From Actinomycetes bacterium (GTDB lineage: Bacteria; Actinomycetota; Acidimicrobiia; Acidimicrobiales; GCA-2861595), in assembly GCA_023264975.1 (NCBI GenBank), contig JAHFUS010000010.1, forward strand, positions 1 to 63,386: a DNA stretch of 63,386 nt, written 5' to 3'. Below are positions 39,002-57,390 of the stretch, one piece after another. The notes under the pieces are model-generated. The model was not told where the DNA came from and searched no databases. It saw only the letters and a list, made by a program, of their open reading frames with translations. Each line of letters begins with the position of its first letter. Positions within the stretch are counted from its first letter, which is position 1. Both the position numbers and the translations under genes were made by a program.

Positions 39002-39008
39002 CGACACC

Positions 39009-40520: not shown

Positions 40521-40615
40521 GAGTCCATCCTACCCGCTCGTAGTTTCTAATTTCGAGGGGTAGTTGTTACTACATTCGAGAGCGCCTCCGTTCTACACTT
40601 CCCCTATATCTATTT

Positions 40616-40705
40616 CTATATCTGAGGCACTCTACGTTCTAGACCCGAGGTCTCGCCCGGCCGGCGCCCCATGCCGACGTCGAGGGTCCTGGTGGCGTCG
40701 CTCAT
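40616..40705 (-). pseudogene. Possible remnant of an imuB 5' end left next to imuA'
   Basis: An ATG 57 bp after the imuA' stop opens MSDATRTLDVGMGRR and runs only 29 codons. MS-DATRTL resembles the imuB N-terminus (MVSAGAATRTLVAW); the shared DNA is GCCACCAGGACCCT. The position is where imuB usually begins after imuA'. The similarity is short and could be chance. Confidence 0.25.
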
Positions 40706-40761
40706 CGCCCGGCCGGGACGAGCGGGCTCATGCGGAGGTCCGGTTCAGGGTTTGTGCGGCG

Positions 40762-41451
40762 TCAGCGTCCTGGTACCGGATGCTGACGCTGCAAGAACCG
40801 GCCGGCCGGGGCGACGGCGCCGTCGGCGGCGGGGAGCCAGAGGCGGGCCCGGCGGGGGCGGGCGGCAGCGCCCCGGCCCTCGGCCACCACCTCCACCAGC
40901 CGGGCCTGCAGGTGCCCCGCCCCCCCGTCGAGGCCCACCCACGACGAGGTGGCCACGGACAGGCGCACGTCGGCGCCCTCCCAGCGGCCGAGCGGCACAA
41001 GCACGGCGCCCCGCTCGCGGGCCCGGGCCGCCAGGCGGCGGGCGTCGGCCGCCCGCACCGCCCGGTCCGGCACCCGCACGACCACCACGTCGAGAGCGTC
41101 GAGCAGAGCGGCCACCACCACCGCCCAGTCGCGGCCCGGCGCCGCCACCAGCGCCAGGCGCCCGATGGCCACGCCGACCTCGGCGGCAGCCACCAGTCCG
41201 AGCGACGGCACGCCCACCACCGCGCACCACGACCCCGCCGCTGAGGGCCCCGCCAGCAGGGCCAGGGCCAGCGACGTGGAGCCGGCCACCGCCACCGTGG
41301 ACCCCCGCCGCAGGCCCCCACCCGGGAGGAGCCCGCCCAGGGCGGGCAGCACGGGCAGCATCCGTCCGCCGGCCAGGGAGACGGGCCGGACCGATTCGGG
41401 AAGATCGACCGATCCCGGCGGGACGGCGGCCAAAGGGGACGCGAGAGCCAT
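40762..41451 (-). CDS. imuA': ImuA', RecA-like mutasome component
   Basis: 229 residues from ATG at 41451. The opening SVDLPESVRPVSLAGGRMLPVLPALGGLLPGGGLRRGSTVAV (in pieces) is typical of actinobacterial ImuA'. The RecA fold follows (AVVGVPSLGLVAAAEVG, VVVVRVPDRAVRA), but Walker A is not canonical (VAGSTSLALALL). The protein bridges ImuB and RecA in SOS mutagenesis. Its promoter carries a perfect LexA box. An ATPase gene separates it from imuB. Confidence 0.85.
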   Translation of the reverse strand: MALASPLAAVPPGSVDLPESVRPVSLAGGRMLPVLPALGGLLPGGGLRRGSTVAVAGSTSLALALLAGPSAAGSWCAVVGVPSLGLVAAAEVGVAIGRLALVAAPGRDWAVVVAALLDALDVVVVRVPDRAVRAADARRLAARARERGAVLVPLGRWEGADVRLSVATSSWVGLDGGAGHLQARLVEVVAEGRGAAARPRRARLWLPAADGAVAPAGRFLQRQHPVPGR

Positions 41452-41460
41452 GCTCGCCCC

Positions 41461-41489
41461 AGTATCGAACGTATGTTCGAGAGCGTCAA
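41461..41489 (-). promoter_or_regulatory. SOS promoter of imuA': -35, perfect LexA box, -10
   Basis: On the minus strand: TTGACG (41489-41484), a 17-bp spacer, GATACT (41466-41461). The LexA box TCGAAC-GTAT-GTTCGA (41465-41480) is a perfect consensus match within the spacer. Nine bases separate the -10 from the ATG, so the message is leaderless or nearly so. Confidence 0.9.
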
Positions 41490-41659
41490 CCGGACGCCGC
41501 CCCCGGTGCCCGGAGGAGCAGCACCCCGACCTGGCCCTCAGGGCTGAGCGTCTTCGCGTTCGCACTGGTATTACCGTCGATCAGCCGTCATCATTGCCAA
41601 GGCGTCATGGACAGCACCGCGCTGACGAGCCGACGTCGCCTCGTGGCCGGCCGGCAGCG

Positions 41660-42670
41660 ATGAGCGTCGCCGGCCGCACGATCATCATCGGCGGCACCGT
41701 CGCCATCGCCGTCGTCGCCCGCGCCGCCTTCCCCCTGGACGGCCTCACGCCGATCGCCCGCCAGGAGATCCCCGCCGCGATGGTCGACGTCTACAAGTCG
41801 GCCGCCACCCGCTGCAGTGGGCTGCCGTGGCAGGTGCTGGCCGCCATCGGCTGGGTCGAGTCGCGCCACGCCGGCGGGAAGGCCGATCCGGATACGGGCG
41901 ATGTCGAGACGCCCATCGTCGGCGCCGCCCTCGACGGGTCCGGCGGCTCCGTGGCGATGGCCGACAAGAGCCAACCCGACAGCTGGGTGCACGCCCTCGG
42001 GCCCATGGGCATGCTGCCGGCTGCCTGGGAGCGCAACGCCGTCCTCGCCCCGGGGCGACCCGCCGGCGCCACACCCTCGGTGCAGAATGCCTGGGACGCC
42101 ACCTACGCGACCGCCGGCGAACTGTGCGGCGGCGCGCCCGTCCTCACCGACCTCAACCTCGCCATCCGCCAGCACACCCAGCGGCCAATCGTCGTCATGG
42201 AGATCCTCCTCAAGACGGCCAGGTACGGCTCGGGCGTCGTGCCCGATGTCGACGCCCTGGTGGCGGCGGTATCCCTCGAGCAGACCGGCGGCGACGGCTC
42301 GGCGGGCGCCGCCGTCGTGCGGGCCGCCCTCCAGGTGCTCGGCACCCCGTACGTGTGGGGCGCCGAGTCACCGGCCGACGGCTTCGACTGCTCCGGCCTG
42401 GTGTGGTGGTCCTACCGCCAGGCCGGTTTCTCGGTGGCCCGCACCACCGAGACCCTGATCCGGGAGGGGGTACCCGTATCGACCGGCCAGCAGCTCCAGC
42501 CCGGGGACCTGATCTTCACCCGCGGGGGCCAGCGGGTCCACGACCTCGGCCACGTCTCCATCTACGCGGGCGGCGGGATGGAGGTCATCGCCCCCCGGTC
42601 GGGCAAGTCGGTCACGGTCCAGCGGGTCGATTTCGACCGGACCCAGGCGGTGCGGCGGCTCCTGACCTGA
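41660..42670 (+). CDS. Cell-wall hydrolase: lytic-transglycosylase-like plus NlpC/P60 domains
   Basis: 336 residues. An N-terminal hydrophobic segment (about 7-25) is followed by an SLT-like domain with LAAIGWVESRHAGG (catalytic Glu in WVES) and LGPMGMLPAAW. The C-terminal NlpC/P60 domain has GTPYVWGAESPADGFDCSGLVWW (nucleophile Cys), then GDLIFTRGG and GHVSIYAGGGMEVIAP (His). Such two-headed enzymes cut glycan and peptide of peptidoglycan. It is oriented against the pilus operon and ends 21 bp from it, so it may loosen the wall for assembly. Confidence 0.85.
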   Translation: MSVAGRTIIIGGTVAIAVVARAAFPLDGLTPIARQEIPAAMVDVYKSAATRCSGLPWQVLAAIGWVESRHAGGKADPDTGDVETPIVGAALDGSGGSVAMADKSQPDSWVHALGPMGMLPAAWERNAVLAPGRPAGATPSVQNAWDATYATAGELCGGAPVLTDLNLAIRQHTQRPIVVMEILLKTARYGSGVVPDVDALVAAVSLEQTGGDGSAGAAVVRAALQVLGTPYVWGAESPADGFDCSGLVWWSYRQAGFSVARTTETLIREGVPVSTGQQLQPGDLIFTRGGQRVHDLGHVSIYAGGGMEVIAPRSGKSVTVQRVDFDRTQAVRRLLT

Positions 42671-42691: not shown

Positions 42692-45484
42692 TCAAGCGGG
42701 GCCGTCGTCGTCGGCGAACCCCTCCCACCCGAGGAGCCGGGCCACGTCGCCGACCGAGTAGGCCCCGTTCTCCCACAGCCGGCCCGGGGCCGTCCGGACG
42801 AGGAAGCCGCGGTAGGCGCTCGTCGCCACGTCCGCCGCCGGGTCGGCCTCCACCATGGTGCGATAGGCCGCCAGCGCGGTGGCAGCCACGTCCGTCATGT
42901 CCTCGTCCTCGACGCTCATCGCCGCGTGCAGCAGGGCCGTGCTCAAGAACGCCTTGGCGTCGTCGTGGGTACGCGGGCTCGCGGTCAGCGGCTCGGCCAG
43001 GAGCCGCTGACCGTCGTCGACCGCCCGCAGGCGGGCCCGCAGCCGGTCGATGCACCGGCGGATGCCGGGGCCTTCGGAGCCGGCGCCGCTGCTCTCGCGC
43101 CGCTGCTGCTCCAGGTCGTCGACCAGCCGTCGATGGTGCTCACCGGCCATGTCGAACAGGCGGCGGTTCACACCGATGACCTGTTGCTGCCAGCCGTCGT
43201 AGACGGTGATGGCGGCCCGCTCGCTCCGGAAGACGGCAAGGATCTCCCCGCCGTTGTCGATCTTCATCCCTCCGGCGGCGACGGTGTTCTCCGCAAGGCT
43301 CGCCAGGGTGGTGTCCTCGCCGCTGGTGACGGCATAGGGATTGCTGCGGAACCGGGCCCGGTCGTCCGACGCGGTGAGCTGGGCACACGTGAGCATCCTG
43401 CTGCCGGAGCGGTGCTCGTGGTTCGCCCGCAGCGTCACCCTTACCGATTGGGGCGGCCCCTCGTCCCCGCAGGCGACGTCCACGACGACGGCGAAGTGGG
43501 TGTCCCTGGTGATCGAGTCCCTGCCCGGGGGGACGAGGGCATCGGCGGCCTCCTCACCGGCCTCCGCCACCCGCACCCGCGCCGGCCTGCCCGACCCGGG
43601 CTTGCCGGGCTTGGCCGGCGCCCCGTGGTCGACCAGTTGCAGCGAGTTGTGGGCCAGGTTGATCCCGACCTGGCGCATGGCCGCCTCGATGGCCTCCTGG
43701 GCGGTGGCGCCGACGAACTCCGTGAACGACGCTGGCGCCCGGTAGATCGGCTCGAATGCGAGGGTGACGGCGCGCCCGGCCTCCGCTCGGGTCCGCTCCC
43801 CAGCTGCCCGGGCGCTCTTGCGCTTCCGGCCCCGCAACACTTCCAGGCGGGCCGACACCTTGAACCACAGGAACTCCCGGCCGGACCCCACCTCGAGCGC
43901 GGCTCCACGGTGGCCGTTCCGCCTGCGCTTCGAGGACCGCTCGTAGCGGCCACCCGACGGGCTCTTTGCCCGGCCGGCGGCGGACCAGCCCGTCCAGCCC
44001 AGGCGGCGCAGGACGAGCCCGCTCCAGCGATCGCCGAAGCGGCGCTTGCCGTGACCCCCCGCCGGGGCGGCCAGCCCGCCGAGGCCGAAGACGACCCCCA
44101 GGTTCCCCACGTGGGCGCCCCAGCCCAGAACCGTCTCGAGCAGGAGGCTGCCGTGGAGCGGCGCCACCGCGTCGGGGTCGGGAAGGAACGCGCTGAGCAC
44201 GCCCAGCACGCTGCTGGCCACTGCGGCGGTGCCGAGCAAGTACCGAAGGTCGGTCGTCGGCTCGGGGCTGCGGCCGGAAGGGAGGTGCCAGAGGCTGTAG
44301 CCGAGACCGACGACCGAGACCGCCAGCGCGACCCACCTTTGGTCGAGCATGCCGAGGTGCCGCCCGCGCGCCAGCACCGCCAGGGCGGCGCCGATGGTGA
44401 CGGCCGAACCCAGCAGCACCAACGACATACGCCGACCGATACCGGTGTCCGGTACAGGCTCGGGCCCCGGCCCGTCCGCCGCCGGCGCCTCCCCCTCCTC
44501 GGTGACGGGAACGGATGGCTCCTCGACGGCGTCGGCATCGCCAGCGGCCGTTGCGCCTGCGTCCGCGTCACGAAGGTCGACCATCGCCTCGCCGTCCCCC
44601 ACGGAGTGGCGCCCGACGCCTCGGGAGGCGACCAGCCCGACGGCCAGGAGGACGACGGCCAGCCGCCCGTGCAACGTGACTTTTTCCGCTACATCGACCA
44701 GGCCCGACGACACCGCGCCCGTTCCGGTGACGAGGTGTCGGAGACGCCAGTCGAACAGGGCGTGGTCGAAGACGACGAGGGACAGGGCAACGACAGCCGG
44801 CACGTAGCGCCAGGGACGGGTCGGGAGCCGCATCGCGATGCCGGCCGCCATGCCGACCAGGGCGGCACCGATGGCGTGGCCGGCAAAGGACGTGGCCGAG
44901 GCGCCGGCCGAGCCGGGGACGTTGTGCATCCCCGCCAGGAGGGGGCTCACGTAGTCGGGCGCGACGTGGAGGCTCCCGGTCGCCAGGGCCGCTTGTGCGA
45001 CCAGGAGGCCGAGCCCGCTCGCCAGTCCGGCCAGAGCGGCGTCGGCCACGACCGGGACGCGCCGGCGGTCGCCCGAAACGCCCAGGAGCAGCAGCGGTGC
45101 ACAAGTCGCCAGGGCCTCGACGAGGGGACCGACGACATGCAGTGTGGGGCGAGCAAAGACGAAGCCGGCGGCCCGCTCCAGCACCACGGACGTGGTGCCG
45201 GCGAAGACCGCCCCCAGGCCGAAGAACGCCGCGAGGTTGCCCGGCGACAACGTGGACCGCCCGGCGAGGACCCGGACCTCGGCGAACAGGACGGCGGGCA
45301 GGACCAGGAGGTCGGCGACGGCGCCGAGACCCTGCGGGCTGTCGGGACGCAGGACGACCCAGGCCAGCGCGACGGCGGCGCCGAGGGCGGCGAGCAGCCG
45401 GTCGGGCACGCCCGGCGCCGTCGACCTCGACCGCGAGTTCGGCGTACGACCGCCCGGCGTCTCGACCTCGTCGGCGACCGTCAA
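42692..45484 (-). CDS. Large polytopic membrane protein, PrsW-like N-terminus, unknown C-terminal domain
   Basis: About 930 residues if TTG at 45484 is used, 10 bp after the OmpA-domain stop; the exact start is uncertain. The N-terminal half has about eight membrane helices with PrsW-like motifs (VVGPLVEALATCAPLLLLG, SFAGHAIGAALVGMAAG, VVFDHALFDW), plus an acidic linker and four more helices. The C-terminal ~400 residues (FLWFKVSARLEVLRGRKRKS onward) are soluble, match nothing I know, and end near LLGWEGFADDDGPA. It closes the pilus operon. If it is a protease, regulation of pilus or envelope proteins is possible. Confidence 0.55.
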   Translation of the reverse strand: MTVADEVETPGGRTPNSRSRSTAPGVPDRLLAALGAAVALAWVVLRPDSPQGLGAVADLLVLPAVLFAEVRVLAGRSTLSPGNLAAFFGLGAVFAGTTSVVLERAAGFVFARPTLHVVGPLVEALATCAPLLLLGVSGDRRRVPVVADAALAGLASGLGLLVAQAALATGSLHVAPDYVSPLLAGMHNVPGSAGASATSFAGHAIGAALVGMAAGIAMRLPTRPWRYVPAVVALSLVVFDHALFDWRLRHLVTGTGAVSSGLVDVAEKVTLHGRLAVVLLAVGLVASRGVGRHSVGDGEAMVDLRDADAGATAAGDADAVEEPSVPVTEEGEAPAADGPGPEPVPDTGIGRRMSLVLLGSAVTIGAALAVLARGRHLGMLDQRWVALAVSVVGLGYSLWHLPSGRSPEPTTDLRYLLGTAAVASSVLGVLSAFLPDPDAVAPLHGSLLLETVLGWGAHVGNLGVVFGLGGLAAPAGGHGKRRFGDRWSGLVLRRLGWTGWSAAGRAKSPSGGRYERSSKRRRNGHRGAALEVGSGREFLWFKVSARLEVLRGRKRKSARAAGERTRAEAGRAVTLAFEPIYRAPASFTEFVGATAQEAIEAAMRQVGINLAHNSLQLVDHGAPAKPGKPGSGRPARVRVAEAGEEAADALVPPGRDSITRDTHFAVVVDVACGDEGPPQSVRVTLRANHEHRSGSRMLTCAQLTASDDRARFRSNPYAVTSGEDTTLASLAENTVAAGGMKIDNGGEILAVFRSERAAITVYDGWQQQVIGVNRRLFDMAGEHHRRLVDDLEQQRRESSGAGSEGPGIRRCIDRLRARLRAVDDGQRLLAEPLTASPRTHDDAKAFLSTALLHAAMSVEDEDMTDVAATALAAYRTMVEADPAADVATSAYRGFLVRTAPGRLWENGAYSVGDVARLLGWEGFADDDGPA

Positions 45485-45494
45485 GGCCGTACCG

Positions 45495-46046
45495 TCAACG
45501 GCCGAGGATGACAACTTCGACCCTGCGGTTGCGCTGGCGGTTCTGCTCGCTGTCGTTCGGTGCAATGGGCCGGGACTCGCCGAACGCCTTCACGACGAGC
45601 GTCTCGGCGGCGATGCCGTTGACGATGATCAGGTGCTCCCGGACGGCGTTGGCCCGACGCTCGGACAGGCCCTGGTTGAACTGGTCGGTGCCCACGTCGT
45701 CGGTGTGGCCCTGGATCTCGACCTGGGCGCCGGCGTAGAAGCCGACCACCTCCGCCACCTTGTCGAGCGTGGTCGACGCATCAGGGCGGACGTCGGCCTT
45801 GTTGAAGTCGAACAGCACCTGCTCGGGAAGCGGCACCACCAGGCCCTGCTCCGACTGCGTCGCATTTAGGTCCGTGAGGATCTGCTTGACCTCCGTCTCC
45901 CGGCTCGGCGCCGCCGTGGTGGTCGTCGTGGGGGCCGGGAGCGGGCGGGGTGGCAGCGGGCGGGGACCCGGCAGGGCGGCTGTGCTCACGAGCGCCAGTA
46001 GTGCGAGCACCGGGATCGCGGTGAACGGACCGACGCGCGGCGTCAC
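45495..46046 (-). CDS. OmpA-family peptidoglycan-binding protein
   Basis: 183 residues from GTG, overlapping the stop of the giant pilus protein (GTGA). A signal/anchor segment (about 8-28) and a Pro/Thr-rich linker precede an OmpA-C domain: VLFDFNKADVRPDASTTLDKVAEVV, then IQGHTDDVGTDQFNQGLSERRANAV, and NRQRNRRVEVVIL. The domain binds meso-DAP peptidoglycan through the Asp/Arg pair (D in TDDVG, R in LSERRA). It likely ties the pilus machinery to the wall. Confidence 0.88.
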   Translation of the reverse strand: MTPRVGPFTAIPVLALLALVSTAALPGPRPLPPRPLPAPTTTTTAAPSRETEVKQILTDLNATQSEQGLVVPLPEQVLFDFNKADVRPDASTTLDKVAEVVGFYAGAQVEIQGHTDDVGTDQFNQGLSERRANAVREHLIIVNGIAAETLVVKAFGESRPIAPNDSEQNRQRNRRVEVVILGR

Positions 46047-49000
46047 CTCAGGACGCTCCACCCCTGTACCTGCACCGTGTCCTGGGTGGCGTCGAAAGCG
46101 ACACGGGCCCGCAGCAACGGGCCGGAGAGGAGGTCGAGGGTGATCCCGTCGAGATCGGCGGTGGCCCCCGTGGCCGGGGGACCGGCCAGCGTGACGGTGT
46201 AGGTGACGGTGAGGCCGGAGGGGCCGATCTTGGCCAGGCTGTCGAGGCCGCAGGGGGTGAGGTCGACCTGGTCCTCTATCAGCAAACCGGAACGCGACAA
46301 CCGGAACGGCTGGGTGCACGCTGGGAGGCCGCCGACGGTGATGGTCATCGCGTCGATGTCGACATCTTCGCGATGGGCGATTCGCAGCACCGCGGCGTCG
46401 ATCGGCGCGCCGGCCGGCAGCGTGCTCTGGGCGAAGTTCTCCAACGTGATGGAGGCCGAGGCACCAGGGCCGCTGAGCGCGGCCTGGGCCAGCGCGCCGT
46501 CGATCGCCAGGGCGTTGCTTTCGCTGGTGAACCCAGCCGTCGTGGGTGTCACCGCCCGGGCCGTCACGTCGGGGTAGGCGGTTAACCGTACGGGCTCGGG
46601 TGGCACGCCCATTACCGGCCGCGTGAACCTGGCGGCGGCCCTGAGACCGAGCTTGATGGCGCGGGCCACCAGGCCTCGCGTGAGGACCTGTCCGTCGAGC
46701 CCGTCCATGGAGATGTCCAGCGCCGCCGTCGGGGCGTACACAGTTCCCTGGGCGACGAAGCGGGTCGTAGTGTCGCCGGGCGCCGGCTGGACGCTCACGA
46801 GGGCGCACGCGCCGACGGTGCCGGGATAGGGGGCGGTGGTGAGGCAGCCGTCGAGCGGCCGGAACGTCGGCGGGCGGTAGACGATGTCGAGCTCGATGCC
46901 GTCGAGGCGATCGGTGCCCGATGTCGCCTGGTAGGTGACATCGAGGACGGCGCCGTCGAGCCGTGCGGTGCCGGCGGTGGCGACGCCGTCGAGAGTGGCC
47001 TCGTAGGTCACTGCCAGGTCCGCGAGCTGCGCGGCCGTGGTAAGGCCGCAGGCCGTCCTCAGGTCGACGGTGTCGGTGCCAAGGGTGGCGCGGGGCGCGA
47101 AGGTCTGCGTGACGCACGGTGTACCTGCGAGCGAGACAGTCACCGCCACCGGCGCCACCCCGGCGTCATCCTGGTGGGCGACCCGTAGCACGGCCGCGCT
47201 GATCGGTGAGGCGCCCGGCGGTGCCGCCTGGTTGTAGCCGTTGAGGGTGATCGTGGCGGGCGTGGTGCCGGTGAGTGCGGCGTCCGACGTGAGCGGCGCC
47301 GGCAGTTCACCGACCGCCCGGGCGTTGTCCGGGTTGGCGAAGCCGGTGACGGCGCTGGTCGAGGCCGGCAGCTGGGTCGTGCTCGTGGACGTCGGGGCGA
47401 CGGCGGTGAACGTGGCGGCCAGCGTGGCCAGCTTGGCCGGGTCGTCGAGGCCGCACGTGCGGAGGTCGACGCTGCGGTCGGTGCCGATGGCGGCGGGGTG
47501 GCGCGGAAGCGTCTGGATCGGGCAGGTGCTCCCGGTGAACGTCGTCGTCAAGCTCGGCGCGCCCATCCACGGGTCGTCCTGGTGCGCCACCCGCAACACG
47601 GCCGAGTCGATCGCCGAACCGGCCGGCAGCGGGACGGCGTTGAAGCCGCTGACCGTGAGATCCGCAGGCGCCGCGGGGTTGGCCAGCGTGATGTCGGCCG
47701 TCAGCGGCGCCGGCTGCTCGCCGATCGCCTTGGCGTTGTCGGGGTCGGCGAACCCGGGGGTGGTGGTGCCGGCAGTCGTCGGTCGCCGGACCGAGGGCGG
47801 ACGGTAGGCGAGATCCAGCACCACACCGTCGACGCGGGCGGTGGCGTCGGGGGGCGTGACTGTGGCCGCGGTGAGGTTGGCCGTGTAGGTGACGCCGATC
47901 CCGGTGAGCTTGGTGATGTCGATGAGGCTGCACGGCGCCGCTGTCAGGTCGATCGGGTCGGTGCCGAGGGCAGCGGCCCGCTTGGTGAGCGGCGGCGCAC
48001 ACGAACCACCGGGATAGGTGACGGTCAGCGTCGGCGTGTCCATAGGCCCGAGGTCCTGGTGGGCGACCCGCAGCATGGCCGAATCCACGAACGAGCCGGC
48101 CGGCACCGCAGGCGGCTGGTCGTAACCGGTGAAGGTGAGAGACGCCGTCGGTGCGGCCGTGGTAAGGGTGGCGTCCGAGGTGAGCGCTACGGGCTGTTCA
48201 CCGACGACCTTGGCCTGGTCGGGCGTGGTGAACGATCCGGGCGTCGGGCCCGATGTGACCGCGAGCGCCGAGCGGGTTAGCGCCGGCGGGCGGTAGACGA
48301 GTTCGAGCCACATGCCGTCGAGGCGAGCCGTGGCCGTGGGGCCGGCGCCGTCGAGAGCCACGGTATAGGTAGCCGTGAGGCCGGCGAGCTCCGCCGGGAG
48401 ATCGAGCCCGCACGCCTTGAGGTCGATGCGGTCGTCCACCACCGAGGTGCCGAAGCGTTGGGGCACGAGCAGCGAACTGCAGCCTCCGACCGCCACGCCA
48501 CCGATGGCAACTCCGACGGTGGGCTGCGTCATCTGGCCCTCGTCGCGATGGGCGACCCGCAACACCGCGGCGTCGATCGTGGAGCCAGGCGGGATTGGCG
48601 GGTCGCCCAGCCCGGCCACCGTGATGGACGCTGTCGGCGAGCCGACGGAGAGCGAGGCGTCGGCGGTGAGGGCGACGGGCTGGTCGCCGATCTCGAGGGC
48701 GTTCGCCGTGGTGCCGAAGCCCGCCGAGGCGGTGACCACCGTGGGCTTGCCCGTGACGGGAGTGCGGTACGTGACCTCGATGGCGATCCCGTCGAGCTTG
48801 TCGGTGGCGCTGGTGCCACCGGGCGCCAAGGTGGCCGCGTAGGCGGCGGCCAGGTTGTTGAGGGCGGCGGGCGTGGTGACACCACAGGTCACCTTCAGGT
48901 CGACCCGGTCCTCCATGAGGGTCGGTCGCACCGGAAGGGCGACGGCCTGGGCGCCGGCGCAGGTGCTGTTGGGGACCGCCACCTTGATCGATGTGGCGTC

Positions 49001-50287
49001 GAGGTCGGCGCCCGAGCCGATGTCCTGGTGGACCACCCGCAGCGCGGCGGCGTCGATGAGAGCGCCGTCCGGGATCCTCGGCCGGAAGGCGGTGAGCGTG
49101 ACGGCGGCCGAACTCGACGGGCCGGCGGCGAGGCCGGCGTCGGACGTGAGGGGCGCCGGCCCCTCGCCGACGGTCGTGGCGTTGGCGGGGTTCTCGAACC
49201 TGCTCACACCCGTCCAGTCGGTGGGAACGAGGTTGTGGACCGGGCGGTCGCCGGGCATGCCGTAGAGCGCTATGGACTGCTCGGTCGAGCTGGGCTTTGC
49301 GCACAGCTCGACCCTGCCCTTCGTGATCTGGACACGGGTGCCGCCGCCGGCGACCACCTGCACGCCGTCGTTCGGCACCGCGTCGCCCGCCGTCCTACAG
49401 CTCCCCGGGACCGTGATCGCCGGCCGGGCGGGTGCAGCCGGGTCCCAGCCCTTGGGCGTTCCCGCCACCACGTCGGTCGCGGGGTTGTCGAACGTCCACG
49501 TGCCGGCGCCGCCCCGGAACGTGAAGTCCAGGTAGTAGTCGCCCGGCTTCATCCACACGACCTTGCCGGGGCACGACCCGGCGATCGTCGTGAAGGCGGA
49601 CAGGGCGGCGGCGTCGTCGTAGTAGCCCGGATCGAGGGTCACCAGCCACCCGGCCGGACAGGCCGGCACCGTCCGGCGGGCCGGGACCGTGGACCTGGCC
49701 TTGGCGTAGTCGGGGTCGCGGCCCTGGGACGGGTCGGCGCCACCGGCCGCATTGGCGCACCTCAGCGGCACGGCTGGGGACGTCTGGATGTCGCCGGTGC
49801 AGTCGCCGGTGGCCGACACCTGGCCCTGCACGACCAGGGTGGCCCCGGCCGCCACCGTGGAGTTCGAGAAGATGTTGCCGAGCACGCGCTGCTCGAAGCC
49901 CGGGTAGGTGGAGACGCCCTCGGCGCCGGCGGTCCCCAGGGCCAAGAGGGCGTTCACCGGCTTGGTGGCCCGGCCGCTGGCCGGCCGGTCGTCGTCGACG
50001 CAGCGAACGATCACGCCCTGGCCGTAGAGCGGCAGACCGTCGGGCCCCGAGGGCGCCCTGTAGTCGTTACAGGCGCCGCCGCCCCGGAACCGGTTGATGG
50101 CGGCGTTGACGGCGCCGTCGGTGGCGTAGGCGGAACGGCCCTGCTCGTCGTAGCTCTCCGAGGCCCGCAGCCCGACCTCGGCGAAGCTGATCACCGACGC
50201 CACGAAGAGGCCGAAGATCGTGACGAAGAACAGGGCCATGAGGAGCGCACTGCCCTCCTCGCTCCGCGCCCGTTGGGCCCGTTTCAC
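46043..50287 (-). CDS. Giant PilX-like protein with about six tandem ~140-160-residue modules
   Basis: 1414 residues from GTG, overlapping the stop of the upstream prepilin (GTGA). The N-terminus (RSEEGSALLMALFFVTIFG) is a PilX/prepilin-type hydrophobic helix. Residues to ~360 form a Cys-containing domain. Modules then start near 361, 519, 680, 842, 980 and 1250, each with [F/G]-x-P-x-N-A-x-x-[V/I]-GExPAPLTSDA, then IDxAVLRVAHQDxG, a Cys pair around GTDxVDLxxCGL, and ARLDGxVLDxxYRPP. An insertion with a second domain lies between modules 5 and 6. Probably a pilus-tip adhesin or stalk; function not known. Confidence 0.75.
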   Translation of the reverse strand: MKRAQRARSEEGSALLMALFFVTIFGLFVASVISFAEVGLRASESYDEQGRSAYATDGAVNAAINRFRGGGACNDYRAPSGPDGLPLYGQGVIVRCVDDDRPASGRATKPVNALLALGTAGAEGVSTYPGFEQRVLGNIFSNSTVAAGATLVVQGQVSATGDCTGDIQTSPAVPLRCANAAGGADPSQGRDPDYAKARSTVPARRTVPACPAGWLVTLDPGYYDDAAALSAFTTIAGSCPGKVVWMKPGDYYLDFTFRGGAGTWTFDNPATDVVAGTPKGWDPAAPARPAITVPGSCRTAGDAVPNDGVQVVAGGGTRVQITKGRVELCAKPSSTEQSIALYGMPGDRPVHNLVPTDWTGVSRFENPANATTVGEGPAPLTSDAGLAAGPSSSAAVTLTAFRPRIPDGALIDAAALRVVHQDIGSGADLDATSIKVAVPNSTCAGAQAVALPVRPTLMEDRVDLKVTCGVTTPAALNNLAAAYAATLAPGGTSATDKLDGIAIEVTYRTPVTGKPTVVTASAGFGTTANALEIGDQPVALTADASLSVGSPTASITVAGLGDPPIPPGSTIDAAVLRVAHRDEGQMTQPTVGVAIGGVAVGGCSSLLVPQRFGTSVVDDRIDLKACGLDLPAELAGLTATYTVALDGAGPTATARLDGMWLELVYRPPALTRSALAVTSGPTPGSFTTPDQAKVVGEQPVALTSDATLTTAAPTASLTFTGYDQPPAVPAGSFVDSAMLRVAHQDLGPMDTPTLTVTYPGGSCAPPLTKRAAALGTDPIDLTAAPCSLIDITKLTGIGVTYTANLTAATVTPPDATARVDGVVLDLAYRPPSVRRPTTAGTTTPGFADPDNAKAIGEQPAPLTADITLANPAAPADLTVSGFNAVPLPAGSAIDSAVLRVAHQDDPWMGAPSLTTTFTGSTCPIQTLPRHPAAIGTDRSVDLRTCGLDDPAKLATLAATFTAVAPTSTSTTQLPASTSAVTGFANPDNARAVGELPAPLTSDAALTGTTPATITLNGYNQAAPPGASPISAAVLRVAHQDDAGVAPVAVTVSLAGTPCVTQTFAPRATLGTDTVDLRTACGLTTAAQLADLAVTYEATLDGVATAGTARLDGAVLDVTYQATSGTDRLDGIELDIVYRPPTFRPLDGCLTTAPYPGTVGACALVSVQPAPGDTTTRFVAQGTVYAPTAALDISMDGLDGQVLTRGLVARAIKLGLRAAARFTRPVMGVPPEPVRLTAYPDVTARAVTPTTAGFTSESNALAIDGALAQAALSGPGASASITLENFAQSTLPAGAPIDAAVLRIAHREDVDIDAMTITVGGLPACTQPFRLSRSGLLIEDQVDLTPCGLDSLAKIGPSGLTVTYTVTLAGPPATGATADLDGITLDLLSGPLLRARVAFDATQDTVQVQGWSVLR

Positions 50288-50853
50288 GGCGACACCGCAG
50301 TCCGGCGGTGCACCGTGAGGGCGAGCGTCGGCTCGGACCGGACCTCGAGGGTCACCTTGGCCGGAGTCCCCGAGGCCGGGCACCCTGGACCGGCGTCGCA
50401 GATCGCCGTCACCGGAACGGGGTCACCGACCTTGGTGGTGAAGTGGCCGAGGATCTTCTGGCCGATCGGACCGCCTGGCACCCCGCTGCACGACCAGCGG
50501 ACCAGTTCCTGGTCGGTGCCGGTCGCAGGGTCGAGCCCGTACGACACCCTCCGCGAAAGGCCCTGGTCGGTCCACGAGAGGGTGACGATCAGGTTCGCCG
50601 TGCCGCTGGCGCAGCCGGGATCCGATGTGGACACGACGTCGGCGCTCTGCATGTCGCCCGTGAAGAACGAGGTGAGCGCTTGGGTGGCGACCGAGCGGGA
50701 CGAACTCGCCGCCGTGGCGTCGGTCGTCCGCAGGCCGAGGATGATCGCCTCCGTGAGGACGAAGCCGATGATCCCGAGGATCACGACGACGACCAGCACC
50801 TCGATCAGCGTGAAACCGGTCTCGTCGCCACGTCGCCGCGCGCAGGATCTCAT
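50284..50853 (-). CDS. Type IV prepilin-like protein (second of the pair)
   Basis: 189 residues. The class III signal is short and basic (MRSCARRRGDET) before G|FTLIEVLVVVVILGIIG, with Glu5 of the mature protein present. The rest carries the family's beta region and two Cys pairs (DPGCASG, ICDAGPGCPASG). It starts ATGA-overlapped with the upstream prepilin and ends GTGA-overlapped with the giant gene. Because it is larger than a major pilin it is likely a minor pilin. Confidence 0.85.
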   Translation of the reverse strand: MRSCARRRGDETGFTLIEVLVVVVILGIIGFVLTEAIILGLRTTDATAASSSRSVATQALTSFFTGDMQSADVVSTSDPGCASGTANLIVTLSWTDQGLSRRVSYGLDPATGTDQELVRWSCSGVPGGPIGQKILGHFTTKVGDPVPVTAICDAGPGCPASGTPAKVTLEVRSEPTLALTVHRRTAVSP

Positions 50854-51287
50854 GGCCTTCGCTTCACCACCCGCAGCGTTTCGGGGCTCGGCTGCCTGCC
50901 GCTGGTGGCGACGGCGCTGAGCACGATGAGCTGCAGACCGGTGTCCGAGCAGCTGGGCCCGGGAGGCATGAACTTGTTGGCGCCTCCGTCCCAGTAGCTC
51001 ACCGCTGTCACCGTCAGGTTGAACCCGGTGACGGGCGCCACCTGTCCCTGGTAGTCGGCGACGGTGCCCGGGCACCCCAGGTAGGGGAGCTTCTCGGCCG
51101 CAGTTCGGAGGGCCACGTCGGCGCCCGCCTTCTGCTTCTGCAGGTCCGAGCCGATGATGGCGGTGCCGATGCCGCCGACGATCACCACGAAGGCGATGCC
51201 CATGATTACGACCGCCACCAGGACCTCGATGAGGGTGGAGCCCGACTCCCCGCGCGACTGGCCGGCGGCCGAGCGTCGCCCCGTCAC
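50850..51287 (-). CDS. Type IV prepilin-like protein (first of the pair)
   Basis: 145 residues from GTG overlapping the pilC stop (GTGA). The prepilin motif is SGESGSTLIEVLVAVVIMGIA, i.e. cleavage before Ser/Thr with Glu5 retained; Ser replaces the usual Phe at +1. The globular part has a C-terminal disulfide pair candidate (CPGTVADYQ, CSDTGLQ). Probably a minor pilin or pseudopilin. Confidence 0.8.
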   Translation of the reverse strand: MTGRRSAAGQSRGESGSTLIEVLVAVVIMGIAFVVIVGGIGTAIIGSDLQKQKAGADVALRTAAEKLPYLGCPGTVADYQGQVAPVTGFNLTVTAVSYWDGGANKFMPPGPSCSDTGLQLIVLSAVATSGRQPSPETLRVVKRRP

Positions 51288-52495
51288 GTGAGGTCCACCT
51301 GGTTGTAGATGCCGTACATGGCGGACACGAGGGCGATCGCCACGAAGCCGACGAAGACGCCGACGAAGATCACGGCCATCGGCTCGAACAGCGTGGTGAG
51401 CTTCTTGAGCTTGTACTGGAGCTCGTTCTCGTAGTACGCCGCCATCGCCTCGAGCTGGTCGTCGAGCGTTCCCGTCTCCTCGCCGACGCGCATCATCGAC
51501 GTCACCGTCTTGGGGAAGAGCAGCGTGCGGGCGATGGGCCGGGCGATCCCGTCCCCCTCGATCATCTGTGTGCGGGCGACCTCCAGCGACCGTTCGTAGA
51601 CGAGGTTGTTGGCGCCGCTGCTGGCGAGGCGGAGCGACTCGGGGATCGGCACACCGGCCTCGAGCATCGACGTGAGGACGCGGCAGAACCGCTCGACGAC
51701 GGTGAAGCGCACCACGTCGCCGAGCACGGGCACGCTGAGGAGGGCCCGGTCCCGGTAGTAGCGGCCCCTGCCGGTGCGGATGGCGGCGATGAACCCGACG
51801 GCCACGAAGACGACGAAGGCCACCATCACCGGCCACCAGTTGCCGAGGAAGTCGGTGAAGGAGAGCAGCATGCGGGTGGCGAGCGGGAGCTTGGCATCGA
51901 ACGACTGGAAGAACGTCTTGAAGCGGGGGAGGACGAAGACGGTGATCACGCCCACCGTGATGAAGGCCATCACCATCACGACCGCCGGGTACGCCAGCGC
52001 GGCTCGGATCTTGCGCTTCGCCTCCATGTCGCGCTCGACGTACTTCGAGAGCTGGCGCAGCACGACGTCGAGCTCGCCGGTGGCCTCTGCTGACTGGAGC
52101 ACGGCCATGTAGAACGGCGGGAAGGCGTCCTTGTGGGCCGCCATGGCGGTGGCGAAGCTCTCGCCGAACCGCAGCGAGTCGGACACTTCGGTGACGACCT
52201 TCTTCAGGGCCTTGCTGCCGGTCTCCTCCTCGATGATCGCGAGGGCGTCGATGAGCGGGAGCCCGGACGACACGAAGGCCGCCATCTGCCGGGAGAAGTT
52301 GGCCAGCTCGACGGGCTTCACCTTCGTGGGGGTGAGCTCGAACTGGAGGAAGCTGCGCACCTCCGGCTTGACCAGCTGGACCTGCATCCCCTGGCGGGTG
52401 AGGCTGTCGGTGACACCCTCGACGCTCGATCCCTTGACGACGCCGACGAGCGAATTGCCTTCGGAACTGACTGCGGCGTAGCGGAACTTGGCCAT
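51284..52495 (-). CDS. pilC: Type IV pilus inner-membrane platform protein PilC (GspF family)
   Basis: 403 residues from ATG at 52495, 7 bp after pilB. Two GspF domains are seen: the first with ELANFSRQMAAFVSSGLPLIDAL and EVSDSLRFGESFATAMA, the second with VERFCRVLTSMLEAGVPIPESLRLAS and MMRVGEETGTLDDQLEAMAAYYENEL. Three membrane helices lie in the standard places. It couples PilB to pilin extraction. Confidence 0.9.
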   Translation of the reverse strand: MAKFRYAAVSSEGNSLVGVVKGSSVEGVTDSLTRQGMQVQLVKPEVRSFLQFELTPTKVKPVELANFSRQMAAFVSSGLPLIDALAIIEEETGSKALKKVVTEVSDSLRFGESFATAMAAHKDAFPPFYMAVLQSAEATGELDVVLRQLSKYVERDMEAKRKIRAALAYPAVVMVMAFITVGVITVFVLPRFKTFFQSFDAKLPLATRMLLSFTDFLGNWWPVMVAFVVFVAVGFIAAIRTGRGRYYRDRALLSVPVLGDVVRFTVVERFCRVLTSMLEAGVPIPESLRLASSGANNLVYERSLEVARTQMIEGDGIARPIARTLLFPKTVTSMMRVGEETGTLDDQLEAMAAYYENELQYKLKKLTTLFEPMAVIFVGVFVGFVAIALVSAMYGIYNQVDLT

Positions 52496-52502
52496 CGCGC
52501 TC

Positions 52503-54311
52503 CTATAGCACGTAGATGCTGGAGATGATCTCGCCGATCGTGGTGGTGCCGTCCTCGACAAGTGCGATACCGCTGTCGCGCAGGGTGCGGGTGCCGTCCT
52601 GCACCGCCGTGTCACGGATCTCGTCGACGGACCCGCCGCCGATCAGCTGCTTCTTGATCGAGTTCGTCATGCGGAGCAGCTCGAACACGCCCACCCGCTC
52701 CAGGAACCCGGTACGGGCGCAGAAGTTGCAGCCGCGGCCCTGCGAGAAACCCCTGGCCGGAGCCCTGCCCCCCGCCTCCGAGTAGAACGCCAGCTCCTCG
52801 ATGGACGGTTCGTACGGCTCCCGGCACTGGTCGCAGATCCGCCGCAGCAGCCGCTGGCTGACCACGCCGTTGACCGTCGAGGCGATGAGGAACGGCTCGA
52901 TGCCCATCTCGACGAAGCGCTGGAGGGCGGAGGAGGCGTCAGTGCCGTGGATGGACGAGAGCACGAAGTGCCCGGTGAGGGCGGACTCGACGGCGATGCG
53001 CGCCGTCTCGGCGTCGCGGATCTCACCGACGAGGATGACGTCGGGGTCCTGGCGCAGGATGGCACGGAGGCCGGCCGCGAACGTGATGCCGGCCTGCTCG
53101 TTGATCTGTATCTGGTTGATCGAGGAGAACGTGTACTCGACTGGGTCCTCGATGGTGGTGATGTTGCGCTCGGCCTGGTTCATCTCGCCGAGCGTCCCGT
53201 ACAGGGTGGTGGTCTTCCCGCTCCCGGTCGGCCCGGCGCAGATGAGCATGCCGTAGGGCGTGCGCAGGATCTTGGCGTACTGCTCGTAAACCTGGGCGGG
53301 CATCCCCAGCTCCTCGAGGCGGTACAGAGTGCGGTTGCGGTCCAAGAGCCGCAGGACAGCCTTTTCCCCCCAGATGGTCGGGCTGGTGGCGACCCGCACG
53401 TCGATCGGCCGACTGTCGATCTCCTTCACCATCTGGCCGTCCTGCGGGCGCCTGCGCTCGACGATGTTCATGTTGGCGAGGATCTTGATCCGGCTCACCA
53501 GGGCCGGGCCCATGGCCGCCGGCAGCGCGAGCACGTCGTGCAGTGCCCCGTCGATGCGGAACCGGATGCGGACCCGGTCGCTCTGCGGCTCGATGTGGAT
53601 GTCCGACGCCCGGTCGCGCGCGCCCTGGGTGACGATGATGTCGACCAGGTGGACGACGGGAGCGTCGTCGCTCACGACCCGTGTGGCGATCTCCACCTGG
53701 CGGAGCGACTCGGCCGCCTGGAACTCCTCCACCAACGACTGCACGCCTGCGAGGGCGCGGTAGCTGTTGTCGATGGCCCGGCGGATGTCGCCCGGGGGGG
53801 CGATGATCAGGCTCACGGGCAGCGGGGCCAGCGCAGTGACGACCTCGCTCGCCACCCGTGGGTCCAACGGGTCCGCGACCGCCACCTCGAGCCGGCCGTC
53901 CACCTCGCGCAGGGCGATGGCGGTCAGGGAGCGGGCCACGGACTCGGGCAGCCGGCTGACGGCCTCGGGGTCGGGATCGACCCGGCGGAGGTCGACGAGG
54001 GGGATGTCGAGCTGCTCGGAGAGATACTCCGCTACCGCCCGTTCCGACACCATGCCGAGCTCGACCAGCAGGGCGCCGATGAGCTTTCCGGACGCGACCT
54101 GCTGGAGCAGCGCCTCCGAGACCTGTGCCCGGCTCACCAGGCCCCGGGCGACGAGACGCTCGCCGAGCGGAGCGCCCCTGTCCCCCGGTCGGGAGCGGGG
54201 CCGAGCCGGCACGGCCCCGTTGGCCGCGACGGCTTCGGCCAGGTCCGTCGGCGCTGCGGCACGGGCGACTTCGAGCCGCGGCTCCTCGGGCTCGCTCCGG
54301 CGCCGGATCAC
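52503..54311 (-). CDS. pilB: Type IV pilus assembly ATPase PilB (GspE family)
   Basis: 602 residues from GTG. An N-terminal MshEN/GspE-II domain (LGERLVARGLVSRAQVSEALLQQ, LVDLRRVDPDPEAV) leads to the ATPase core: ASDIHIEP, Walker A GPTGSGKTTTLYG, Asp box TTIEDPVEYTF, Walker B VILVGEIRDAETA and His box SSIHGTDA. A C-terminal four-Cys zinc motif (CDQC ... CNFC) is present. It powers pilus extension; no pilT is in the window. First gene of a seven-gene operon. Confidence 0.93.
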   Translation of the reverse strand: MIRRRSEPEEPRLEVARAAAPTDLAEAVAANGAVPARPRSRPGDRGAPLGERLVARGLVSRAQVSEALLQQVASGKLIGALLVELGMVSERAVAEYLSEQLDIPLVDLRRVDPDPEAVSRLPESVARSLTAIALREVDGRLEVAVADPLDPRVASEVVTALAPLPVSLIIAPPGDIRRAIDNSYRALAGVQSLVEEFQAAESLRQVEIATRVVSDDAPVVHLVDIIVTQGARDRASDIHIEPQSDRVRIRFRIDGALHDVLALPAAMGPALVSRIKILANMNIVERRRPQDGQMVKEIDSRPIDVRVATSPTIWGEKAVLRLLDRNRTLYRLEELGMPAQVYEQYAKILRTPYGMLICAGPTGSGKTTTLYGTLGEMNQAERNITTIEDPVEYTFSSINQIQINEQAGITFAAGLRAILRQDPDVILVGEIRDAETARIAVESALTGHFVLSSIHGTDASSALQRFVEMGIEPFLIASTVNGVVSQRLLRRICDQCREPYEPSIEELAFYSEAGGRAPARGFSQGRGCNFCARTGFLERVGVFELLRMTNSIKKQLIGGGSVDEIRDTAVQDGTRTLRDSGIALVEDGTTTIGEIISSIYVL

Positions 54312-54416
54312 AGGCCGCCCGCGGAATTCTCGATCGGCTGGCGGCCAGCCCTGTTGATCACGAGGTTCCCCCCTTGAGGACGCGCAGCCACGCCGGTCTC
54401 GCCATTGTAACGCCGC

Positions 54417-54432
54417 TCGGTTTCGAAACCGA
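54417..54432. promoter_or_regulatory. Perfect 16-bp palindrome, candidate operator upstream of pilB
   Basis: TCGGTTTCGAAACCGA is perfectly self-complementary. It lies 105 bp before the pilB start and about 140 bp before the divergent response-regulator gene. A minus-strand TACAAT (54409-54404) is 7 bp beyond it, so the palindrome covers the -35 region of a possible pilB promoter. The AT-rich stretch around 54430-54480 (GATATAAG) could be the promoter of the response regulator. Confidence 0.5.
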
Positions 54433-54570
54433 AATGAAACCAGAAGTCTTTCAAACGAACGACCGATATAAGAACTTTGTCCGACTTGCCCCCCCCGATT
54501 TCCCCGGGATCCGTGCGATGAGCCGAATGCACCTATGTACGCAGACGCATTAGCGCGGTAGTTTCGTTCT

Positions 54571-55242
54571 ATGGCGAGCGCCCGGGTTCTTCTGGTTGAG
54601 GACGAGACTTCTGTACGCCACGCGCTGGAGCTGGCCTTTCGAGGAGAGGGCTACAACGTGCGGGCAGAGGCCGACGGCCTGAGCCTGGAAGAGGTTGCCG
54701 CCGAGTTCCGACCCGACGTCGCCGTCCTCGACGTGCGGCTTCCTGTGGGCCCGGACGGCTACGCGATGGCCCGCATGCTGCGGGATCGCGACGACCTGCC
54801 TGTGCTGCTGCTCACCGCCGCGGACAGCGTGGAGAACCGCCTCTCGGCGTTCGAGGCGGGCGCCGACGACCACGTCGCCAAGCCATTCTCCACGGCCGAG
54901 CTGCTGGCCCGCACCCAGGCGCTCCTCCGTCGCGCCGGTCGCCTCGTCCCCGCGGTGCTCACGGTGGGCGATGTCGTCATCGACGATGCCACCCGGACAG
55001 TGACGCGCGATGAGAGCCCGATCGAATTGACCCGTACGGAATACGACCTCCTTTCCCTTTTCGCTCGCCATGTCGGGCAGATACTTTCCAAGCAACAACT
55101 CCTTGTCCAACTTTGGGGCTTTGATGCCTATGCCTCGAATGTCATCGAGGTGCACATGTCCGCCCTGCGGCGGAAGTTGGAGGCGTGCGGCCCACGGCTG
55201 ATCCATACCGTCCGCAGCGTGGGATACGTGCTCCGGACCTGA
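54571..55242 (+). CDS. OmpR/PhoB-family response regulator
   Basis: 223 residues. The receiver has acidic pocket VEDE, phospho-Asp in VAVLDVRLP, Thr in LLTAAD and Lys in KPFSTAE. The C-terminal winged helix shows ELTRTEYDLLSLFARHVGQILSKQQLLVQLWG and VEVHMSALRRKLE-type recognition. The kinase gene starts 15 bp downstream. It is divergent from the pilus operon and may control it. Confidence 0.93.
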   Translation: MASARVLLVEDETSVRHALELAFRGEGYNVRAEADGLSLEEVAAEFRPDVAVLDVRLPVGPDGYAMARMLRDRDDLPVLLLTAADSVENRLSAFEAGADDHVAKPFSTAELLARTQALLRRAGRLVPAVLTVGDVVIDDATRTVTRDESPIELTRTEYDLLSLFARHVGQILSKQQLLVQLWGFDAYASNVIEVHMSALRRKLEACGPRLIHTVRSVGYVLRT

Positions 55243-55257: not shown

Positions 55258-57390
55258 ATGTACACGCCCTCGTTGGGCCGGCGGGTGGTGGTGTCCGGTG
55301 TCGCGGTCGTCACGATGCTGAGCCTGTGCCTCGACGCCCTCCTGTTCTTGAGCCTCCGGTCCGGCCTGAACGCCGCCCTAGACCGCGACCTCGCGCGTGA
55401 CAGTCGCGTCGTGCGCGCGGAAGCGCTCCGCCTCGAGGGGCCGGCGCTGGCCGAGCGGCTCGCCGATCTCGGTGTGCGCGTCGTGCTCCGGGACGCATCG
55501 GGAGGCGCCGTTGCCGCACCTGCCCCCGCCGGGCAGGCGGACGGGCCGCTCGCCACCCGACGCGTCGAGCTTCCCGACGGGGTCACCGCCGAGGTGGCGG
55601 TCTCGCGTGCCGGCTCGGACCGCTCGCTCCATCGGCTGTTAATCCTGGAGTCGTTCGTCACCCCGTTGGTGATCGCCCTTGCCCTGCTCATGCTGCGCCT
55701 CGTCGCCGAGGTCGCCCTCCGCCCCCTCGACCGCATCGCGGCAGCCGCCCGGCGTACGGCCGAGGGCCAGAAGGGCGAGAGGCTGCGACCTTCGCCGGCC
55801 GATACGCGGCTCGGCCAGATGGCGTCGGCGTACGACACGATGCTCGACGCCCTCGAGGCCTCCGTCGGCGAAGCCCAGGCGGCGCAGGCCGAGAGCGAGA
55901 CGTTGCTCGCCCACAACCGCCGGATCCTCGACACCGCCCGGGAGGCGTACGTCGCCGTTAACGACAGCGGCATCATCGTCGACTGGAACACCGAGGCCGA
56001 GCGCATCTTCGGCCGGCCACGCGCCGAGGCCCTTGGCCGGCCGGTGGCGGGGACGGTGATGCCCGCCGATGAGCGATCCGCCGGGGACAACGGGCTCGAC
56101 CGCTTCCGTGCCACAGACGCGACCGATCGCGTCGTGGAGATCGTCGCGCTCCATCGTGACGGCCATCGGTTCCCGGCACGCATGACCGTCTGGAGCACCT
56201 CCCATGGTGGCCACGAGACGGTGAGCGCCTTCATCTGGGACGTCACCGAGCAGCGCAGGGCGCAGGAGGCGGTCGCCCGGCTGGCCGCCGTGGTCGAGTC
56301 GGCCGACGAGGCGATGCTGAGCTCGGCCCCCGACGGGAGCCTCCTTACCTGGAATGCGGCAGCCGAGCGGATGTACGGCCACAGCGCGGCCGAAGCCATC
56401 GGCCGCCATGTCCATCTGATCATCCCTGGCGACCTGCGCGAGGGCGTCGGCGAGTCACTCGACGCGGTGCTGCGACGGGGCGAGGTGGAGCGCATGACGA
56501 CGCTCGGGCTGCGCAAGAGCGGAAGCCTCACGGAGGTCGCCCTCACGATCTCGCCCGTGCGGGATGCCTCCGGCTCGGTGTGCGCGGCATCCTGGGTGGC
56601 GCGCGACATCACCGAGGAGCGCTGGATCGCCTCCCAACTCGACGCTTCGCTGCGCGCCTTGGAGCTGGCGCTGGAAGATGCCAAGGCGTCGGAGGCTGAC
56701 ACGCGCCGATTCCTCGACGACGCCGCCCATCAGCTCCGCGCCCCGATCACGAGCATCCGGGCTTGTGCCGAGGGGCTCCTTCGGACGAATGACGTGTCGG
56801 CGAGCGACGAGCTACTCAGCGCAGTCGTGCGCGAGACGTCGCGGGCTGGCAAGCTCATGTCGGGCCTGCTGCGACTGGCCCGACTGAACCACGGCCGAAG
56901 GTCCGTCCCGGTCCCCTGCGATCTGGTCCGGCTATGCAGCGAAGAGGGGGACCGTATCCAGGTGCTCTCGCCACACGTCAAGGTCGTGGTGTCGCAATGG
57001 GGGGCGCTCGACGTGGATCATCCCAGCCTTGACCCCGACGCTGTCGGGGAGATCGTCGCCAACCTGCTCGACAACGCCTGCCGGCACGCAGCCTCCCGGG
57101 TCGAACTGCTCCTGAGCCGCGATCGGGATTGGGTCGAGATCGAGGTACGGGACGACGGCCCGGGCCTGCCGGACGCGACGGTGGACAGCGCCTTCGAGCG
57201 CTTCGTCAGTCTGGACGGCAAGGGCGGTTCCGGCCTCGGGCTGCCCATCGCCCGCGAGCTGGCGCGCGCAGAGGGCGGCGACCTCGTCTACCAGGGAAAG
57301 GCATTCCTGGTCCGCCTCCCGACGCCGGGCCACGATATTGCCGCCGCACCGACGGCCGGTGCGCCCCTCGACCGAAGCCACCGCCCTTGA
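55258..57390 (+). CDS. PAS-domain sensor histidine kinase
   Basis: 710 residues. Membrane helices at about 10-33 and 132-153 flank a small extracytoplasmic domain, then HAMP (to ~205), two PAS domains (about 220-325: IIVDWNTEAERIFGRP; and 340-450: LLTWNAAAERMYGHS), and the kinase core. The H box is LDDAAHQLRAPITSIRA, N box ANLLDNACRHA, G boxes DDGPGLP and GGSGLGLPIARE. It pairs with the response regulator and its stop overlaps the MoxR start (TTGA). Confidence 0.92.
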   Translation: MYTPSLGRRVVVSGVAVVTMLSLCLDALLFLSLRSGLNAALDRDLARDSRVVRAEALRLEGPALAERLADLGVRVVLRDASGGAVAAPAPAGQADGPLATRRVELPDGVTAEVAVSRAGSDRSLHRLLILESFVTPLVIALALLMLRLVAEVALRPLDRIAAAARRTAEGQKGERLRPSPADTRLGQMASAYDTMLDALEASVGEAQAAQAESETLLAHNRRILDTAREAYVAVNDSGIIVDWNTEAERIFGRPRAEALGRPVAGTVMPADERSAGDNGLDRFRATDATDRVVEIVALHRDGHRFPARMTVWSTSHGGHETVSAFIWDVTEQRRAQEAVARLAAVVESADEAMLSSAPDGSLLTWNAAAERMYGHSAAEAIGRHVHLIIPGDLREGVGESLDAVLRRGEVERMTTLGLRKSGSLTEVALTISPVRDASGSVCAASWVARDITEERWIASQLDASLRALELALEDAKASEADTRRFLDDAAHQLRAPITSIRACAEGLLRTNDVSASDELLSAVVRETSRAGKLMSGLLRLARLNHGRRSVPVPCDLVRLCSEEGDRIQVLSPHVKVVVSQWGALDVDHPSLDPDAVGEIVANLLDNACRHAASRVELLLSRDRDWVEIEVRDDGPGLPDATVDSAFERFVSLDGKGGSGLGLPIARELARAEGGDLVYQGKAFLVRLPTPGHDIAAAPTAGAPLDRSHRP

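Follow-up and report, generated by a model that had tools for sequence, protein, structure and literature searches.

What does the compact pilus operon in the window analysed here, a stretch of 63,386 nucleotides, contribute to its host? We consider it reasonably probable that the operon encodes the core machinery for assembling a second type IV filament, independent of PilM, which carries solute-binding proteins (SBPs) as pilins, and that in function it corresponds, in a bacterium, to the archaeal bindosome. The evidence lies in the gene content of the operon, in pilin-SBP fusions encoded elsewhere in the genome, in the match between PilB, PilT and pilin subfamilies, in the synteny of a related genome, and in shared DNA repeats.

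Organization of the operon and its neighbourhood

The seven genes of the operon all lie on the minus strand between positions 54311 and 42692, on contig C68 of a genome (G000) of 3.78 Mb in 139 contigs. Re-reading the sequence base by base confirmed the row as initially annotated, with its 4-bp overlaps and its gaps of 7 and 10 bp. It begins with pilB (54311-52503; 602 aa from a GTG start; Pfam T2SSE 1.1e-120, MshEN 9.9e-19), followed after the 7-bp gap by pilC (52495-51284; a platform protein of 403 aa; Pfam T2SSF 2.9e-55). Through 4-bp overlaps (GTGA and ATGA, respectively), pilC runs into the gene for prepilin A (51287-50850; 145 aa, G^STLIEVLVAVVIMG) and this into the gene for prepilin B (50853-50284; 189 aa, G^FTLIEVLVVVVILG), two minor pilins with N_methyl matches of 20 bits, slightly below the Pfam cut-off of 21.2, and 28.5 bits. 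Further GTGA overlaps join prepilin B to a giant PilX-like minor pilin (50287-46043; 1414 aa) with a class III N-terminus, and the giant to an OmpA-C protein (46046-45495; 183 aa; Pfam OmpA 1.1e-21), which the 10-bp gap separates from a polytopic membrane protein (45484-42692; 930 aa from a TTG start) with a sub-threshold PrsW match. Gene calling by codon usage gave the same seven genes, with the start of the membrane protein 75 bp further in. A short possible leader ORF (54309-54403, minus strand) has a stop that overlaps the pilB start codon.

Divergent from pilB, an OmpR-type response regulator (54571-55242, plus strand; Response_reg and Trans_reg_C) precedes its partner, a PAS-containing membrane histidine kinase (55258-57390, plus strand; HisKA, HATPase_c and PAS). 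The regulator is 58% identical to its paralog on contig C26 of the same genome and 73% identical to that of a related genome, G003, where the pair also adjoins the operon; similar pairs occur near several other loci. A GAAACC-N5-GAAACC pair (54425-54441; 0.1 expected) in the intergenic region between pilB and the regulator is a candidate site for the latter. On the other side, an NlpC/P60 cell-wall hydrolase (41660-42670, plus strand; NLPC_P60 2e-18) converges on the membrane protein gene, as its counterpart does in G003 (NLPC_P60 7e-19), a link that is positional only. Further along, positions 33748-41565 hold a dnaE2-like polymerase, a Y-family polymerase-like gene (IMS domain) and a small ImuA-like gene, resembling a mutasome cassette, and similar genes also flank the triad of giant, OmpA-C and membrane protein in G003 (L016).

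A type IV filament machine distinct from the canonical pilus

By its sequence, the system is a member of the type IV filament superfamily and not of the Bas family. It comprises a GspE/PilB-type ATPase, a PilC/GspF platform protein and class III prepilins (by N_methyl matches and, for the giant, by eye), and a prepilin peptidase is present in the genome (a single A24 match, 3.3e-35, on contig C133). NCBIfam models of the GspE/PilB type reach about 520 bits on the window PilB, as against 30.4 bits for the archaeal bindosome_BasE model with its cut-off of 1000. The operon holds one PilC rather than the two paralogous platform proteins of Tad or type IVc systems. Among type IVa features, a PilT of the matching type is encoded on contig C26 (26423-27520). 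The compact pilus machine for a monoderm proposed in the initial annotation is supported, and pilT, pilM/N/O and pilD are indeed absent from the operon; as a property of the system, however, the absence of pilT and pilD does not hold, both being encoded elsewhere in the genome, as is PilM.

The same genome encodes a canonical type IVa pilus on contig C133 (PilB, PilT, PilC, two PilA, PilD and three minor prepilins), which has the same kinds of parts as the window system but neither an OmpA protein nor SBP fusions. The only PilD of the genome is found there. The window PilB, whose MshEN domain is of the c-di-GMP-binding type, is only 41% identical to the PilB of C133 and falls into a distinct subfamily. 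A third PilB-like ATPase with MshEN is encoded on contig C86 (L017 10695-12407), with no pilC recognizable among the surrounding called genes. Genome searches found one PilM each in G000, G003 and G001, the last of which lacks a window-type pilB; in G001 and G003 it lies on the contig of the canonical pilB, and the single PilM of G000 probably belongs to the canonical pilus as well. As whole-genome searches found no PilM in G033, G082 and G117, all of which have a window-type operon, the PilM-independence of the window-type machine looks genuine.

Distribution and synteny

Across 397 genomes of the order, PilB bit scores form two groups, one at about 500-954 (45-77% identity; the window type) and one at 470 or below (canonical), subfamilies being assigned by pairwise identities and bit-score gaps in a census of sampled genomes, all draft. 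We read forty window-type loci for gene content. Their order-wide core is pilB-pilC-three prepilins-pilA-pilT, with the fullest rows (pilB-pilC-ppA-ppB-PilX-like-pilA-pilT) in L053, L060, L067 and L086 and a response regulator and kinase near several. Orthologs of prepilin A are found in L052, L053, L060, L067 and L086, and prepilin B has orthologs too.

None of the forty loci contains the OmpA-C protein or the membrane protein, the profiles of which recover the G003 copies as a control, and a search of 298 genomes of the order for the membrane protein beyond G003 returned just one marginal match of 18 bits. The two proteins are kept in two genera of one family (G000 and G003). The idea that giant, OmpA-C and membrane protein form a general module is therefore not supported by the other loci of this operon type, about forty of which were read. 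The initial annotation had made the association depend on the last three genes being kept with pilB and pilC in some other genome, and in one, G003, they are. There, the start of contig C65 holds pilB, pilC, both prepilins and the giant N-terminus, and the end of contig C171 the remainder of the giant with the OmpA-C and membrane proteins; the breaks of the two contigs fall within one stretch of the giant gene. As the first ~250 bases of C65 (1-250, L052) appear to be a fold-back (inverted) assembly artefact, we infer the junction within the giant gene. Beyond the operon, C65 continues with a response regulator, a histidine kinase, pilA, Opp permeases together with two pilin-SBP fusions, OppD/F and pilT.

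The giant pilin, the OmpA-C protein and the membrane protein

The giant starts with EEG^SALLMALFF, a class III N-terminus read by eye, and matches no Pfam family. Its PilX-like body is broken by five repeats of up to ~155 aa each, a sixth repeat being C-terminal, and an alignment of twelve repeats shows an invariant Cys pair. The AlphaFold model of the repeat is a beta-sandwich (pLDDT 86) that resembles the CBM-like folds 1wky and 2xom (TM ~0.5 in structure comparison); judging from this model, the repeats may bind polymer or wall glycans. The ortholog in G003 is 48% identical, and those at other loci of this operon type are shorter (450-675 aa). Other giant prepilin-like proteins, of 1011-1655 aa, are encoded at L061, L062, L071 and L080, again loci of the same operon type. 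Two relatives join a pilin domain to other modules: a Thr-rich linker and a CBM_2 cellulose-binding domain in one (L237 1441-2646; G011:C1 ~3281567), and, in a relative further removed within the phylum, a beta-propeller-like module (L248 1222-3000; G492:C72).

The OmpA-C protein has an N-terminal signal or anchor helix (residues 7-25) and no lipobox Cys, and its ortholog in G003 is 60% identical. It keeps the motif HTD...N..LS..RA, which we take to be the signature of the OmpA family, and probably holds peptidoglycan; anchoring of the complex to the cell wall in this manner is plausible.

For the membrane protein, a role as a regulated protease had been suggested initially. Nine helices are predicted, arranged as a PrsW-like N-terminal membrane domain, further helices and a soluble C-terminal region, and the likeness to PrsW (M82) consists in a weak profile match to the N-terminal domain (residues 83-249; 17.2 bits, below the Pfam cut-off of 23.5). 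PrsW proteins are defined by an EExxK motif and a conserved His. In place of EExxK, the two orthologs, which share 44% identity, have PLVEALATC and PVIEVVAVC, and the candidate His is not conserved between them (FAGH and FAGL). We have therefore rejected the identification as a PrsW protease, and the protein is more likely to be a scaffold or sensor. A structure model built from the two-sequence alignment had a pLDDT of 38, too low to be used.

Pilin-SBP fusions and their shared repeats

Contig C26 of G000 carries a cluster of pilA, three pilin-SBP_bac_5 fusions, a response regulator/histidine kinase pair paralogous to that of the window, three OppB/C pairs, OppD/F and pilT. The fusions and the Opp importers escaped the initial annotation because they lie outside the window. 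The three fusions (L114 10601-12886, minus strand; L114 13914-15998, plus strand; L115 619-3105, minus strand) and the two of G003 each combine, in one frame, an N_methyl match of 30-36 bits with an SBP_bac_5 match of 1e-31 to 1e-52. All five, from two genera of family f1, keep G-1, F1 and E5 and a full pilin domain of ~95 residues. In this family, fusions occur in both genomes with a window-type pilB and in none of the four without. OppB/C pairs stand directly beside two of the three C26 fusions, and all three share the cluster with OppD/F. For one fusion, the nearest sequences are HbpA and DppA for the SBP part and the Geobacter pilin domain for the pilin part.

The pilin domains of the fusions are closest to each other and to the PilA of window-type loci (~57-79% identity), as compared with 30-32% to the canonical PilAs of C133, which are 36% identical to the C26 PilA. 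Likewise, the C26 PilT is 56-61% identical to window-type PilTs, as against 51% to the canonical PilT of C133. A further fusion, in which Glu5 is lost, occurs in G117, which has a window-type pilB, and an SBP with a pilin-like N-terminal helix in a Lys5 anchor form occurs in G045 (L132, C15), which has none. Instead of a pilin domain, most related SBPs in the order have a lipobox-type or other leader at their N-terminus. A scan of 80 loci with patterns from a six-fusion alignment found no SBP fusions, the patterns being pilin-only and returning ordinary pilins, and a profile search of 296 genomes at the level of the phylum found no further ones, though it did bring up the pilin-CBM_2 and pilin-propeller proteins described above.

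Some 80-130 bp upstream of each C26 fusion lie phased direct repeats of CTTCAG, 10-11 bp apart (C26 12969-13016, 13798-13835 and 23190-23227). The pattern CTTCAG-N4/5-CTTCAG has ten matches in G000, all upstream of the three fusions, and none for the reversed-pattern control. In G003, where repeats are found on C65 at 8167, 13622, 17768, 18001 and 22713, five of the six matches lie at pilA, both fusions, a small pilin and pilT. The spacing of 10-11 bp presumably suits an OmpR-type regulator, such as a domain search finds encoded in the cluster. As the repeat occurs nowhere else in G000, we dropped a general Pho-type regulon as an explanation. The main gap in this evidence is the promoter of the window pilB, upstream of which there are no CTTCAG repeats.

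Discussion

How might operon and cargo cluster work together? From the gene content we infer the assembly of the filament, its anchoring, the class of its ligands, their delivery to an importer and any role of retraction. PilB and PilC would act with a priming or tip complex of three pilins, the PilX-like member of which would display the chain of CBM-like beta-sandwiches. The main subunits would be encoded apart from this core, on C26: PilA, and three modular pilins that each join an Opp/Dpp-type SBP to an entire class III pilin domain. PilD of the canonical locus would process all prepilins, PilB and PilC would build PilA and the SBP-pilins into a short filament that crosses the wall, and the OmpA-C protein would fix the complex to peptidoglycan. 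The importers encoded in the cluster would take up the ligand handed over by the SBPs, and PilT might possibly draw the filament back. In its fullest form, that of a PilM-independent, PilT-retractable filament whose peptide-type SBPs catch nutrients beyond the wall and bring them to the Opp permeases, this scenario is tentative, and we regard it as doubtful.

We assign the fusions to the window machine on account of the synteny in G003, because their pilin domains match the window-type rather than the canonical PilA, because the C26 PilT is nearer to window-type PilTs than to that of C133, because the fusions of family f1 co-occur with window-type PilB, and because phased CTTCAG repeats mark the fusions in both genomes and, in G003, pilA and pilT as well. 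Against this count the location of machine (C68) and cargo (C26) on different contigs in G000, the fragmented assemblies of both G000 and G003, and the presence of a canonical type IV pilus machine that could assemble the fusions. Furthermore, polymerization may be hindered if every subunit bears an SBP of this bulk, so the fusions may be minor subunits.

Could the modules serve attachment rather than uptake? Modular pilins are widespread (PMC8179133), the giant repeats are CBM-like and a relative has a pilin-CBM_2 fusion, all of which would fit an adhesive type IV pilus with the giant pilin and the SBP domains as ligand-binding tip modules for attachment, in the manner of the modular pilins PilB and PilC of Streptococcus sanguinis, and no role in import. 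However, the fused module is the binding protein of an importer, and the fusions lie beside or near importer genes; related SBPs elsewhere are ordinary lipoproteins adjoining the same kind of permease pair. As this indicates transport over adhesion, we think a purely adhesive function unlikely. In another reading, the pilin domain serves only to anchor an SBP in the membrane in place of a lipid, and the pilus built by the window operon is an ordinary, unrelated one. The loss of Glu5 in G117 and the Lys5 form in G045 indicate that a pilin domain can act in this way, but the five f1 fusions retain G-1, F1, E5 and the full domain closest to window-type PilA, and the co-clustering and the repeats tie them to pilA and pilT, which renders this reading quite improbable. 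A pseudopilus of the type II secretion kind, adapted to a monoderm wall, for which the initial annotation left room, would agree with NCBIfam, where PilB and PilC score nearest to GspE and GspF, although below the cut-offs; as the system includes PilA and a type-matched retraction ATPase in most relatives, we give it very little credence.

Pili are known to move cells, stick and take up DNA; for feeding through type IV filament machinery that bears SBPs, the archaeal bindosome is the only case described so far. If an SBP-carrying filament is indeed what the window operon assembles, the bindosome idea would become testable by ordinary genetics and cryo-EM, in a system that has full fusions, matching permeases and a PilT and a repeat of its own, and a monoderm type IV machine would be seen to work in the absence of PilM and with an accessory protein that binds peptidoglycan. 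A role in displaying exchangeable modules would also become conceivable for the many pilB-pilC loci of the order, pilin-CBM_2 and pilin-propeller proteins being found in relatives.

Among known systems, the Com pilus of monoderms is a minimal machine without PilM/N/O, the genes for which are absent from the window operon too; it differs in having no PilT, no SBP pilins and another subunit set. Of modular type IV pilins, PMC8179133 counts more than 1,200 proteins with 264 architectures; PilB and PilC of Streptococcus sanguinis are of this kind, a pilin module being followed at its C-terminal end by a functional one, and the main text of the paper makes no mention of SBPs as such modules. The likeness lies in the C-terminal module, which is here the SBP of an ABC importer with neighbouring permeases. 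The open-access literature searched yielded no pilin-fused SBPs with importers to match, which is weak evidence of novelty. In the archaeal bindosome, the sugar-binding proteins GlcS and AraS of Sulfolobus, which have class III (pilin) signals, depend on BasABCEF, a type IV filament machine of their own which includes three small pilins and places binding proteins in the envelope (PMC4187195), and of which a filament has never been seen (PMC4471445). While the bindosome is built on BasE/F and bears a signal helix on sugar SBPs, the window system, as read from its genes, is bacterial, has an ATPase and platform of the PilB/PilC type together with a PilT, and bears a whole pilin domain on peptide-type SBPs. 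In both, however, SBPs of ABC importers carry a class III pilin signal, here in five fusions, and a filament machine is linked to them, contiguously in G003 and on separate contigs in G000, which suggests that an arrangement of SBP-pilins and import pumps so far described only in archaea is present here in a bacterium.
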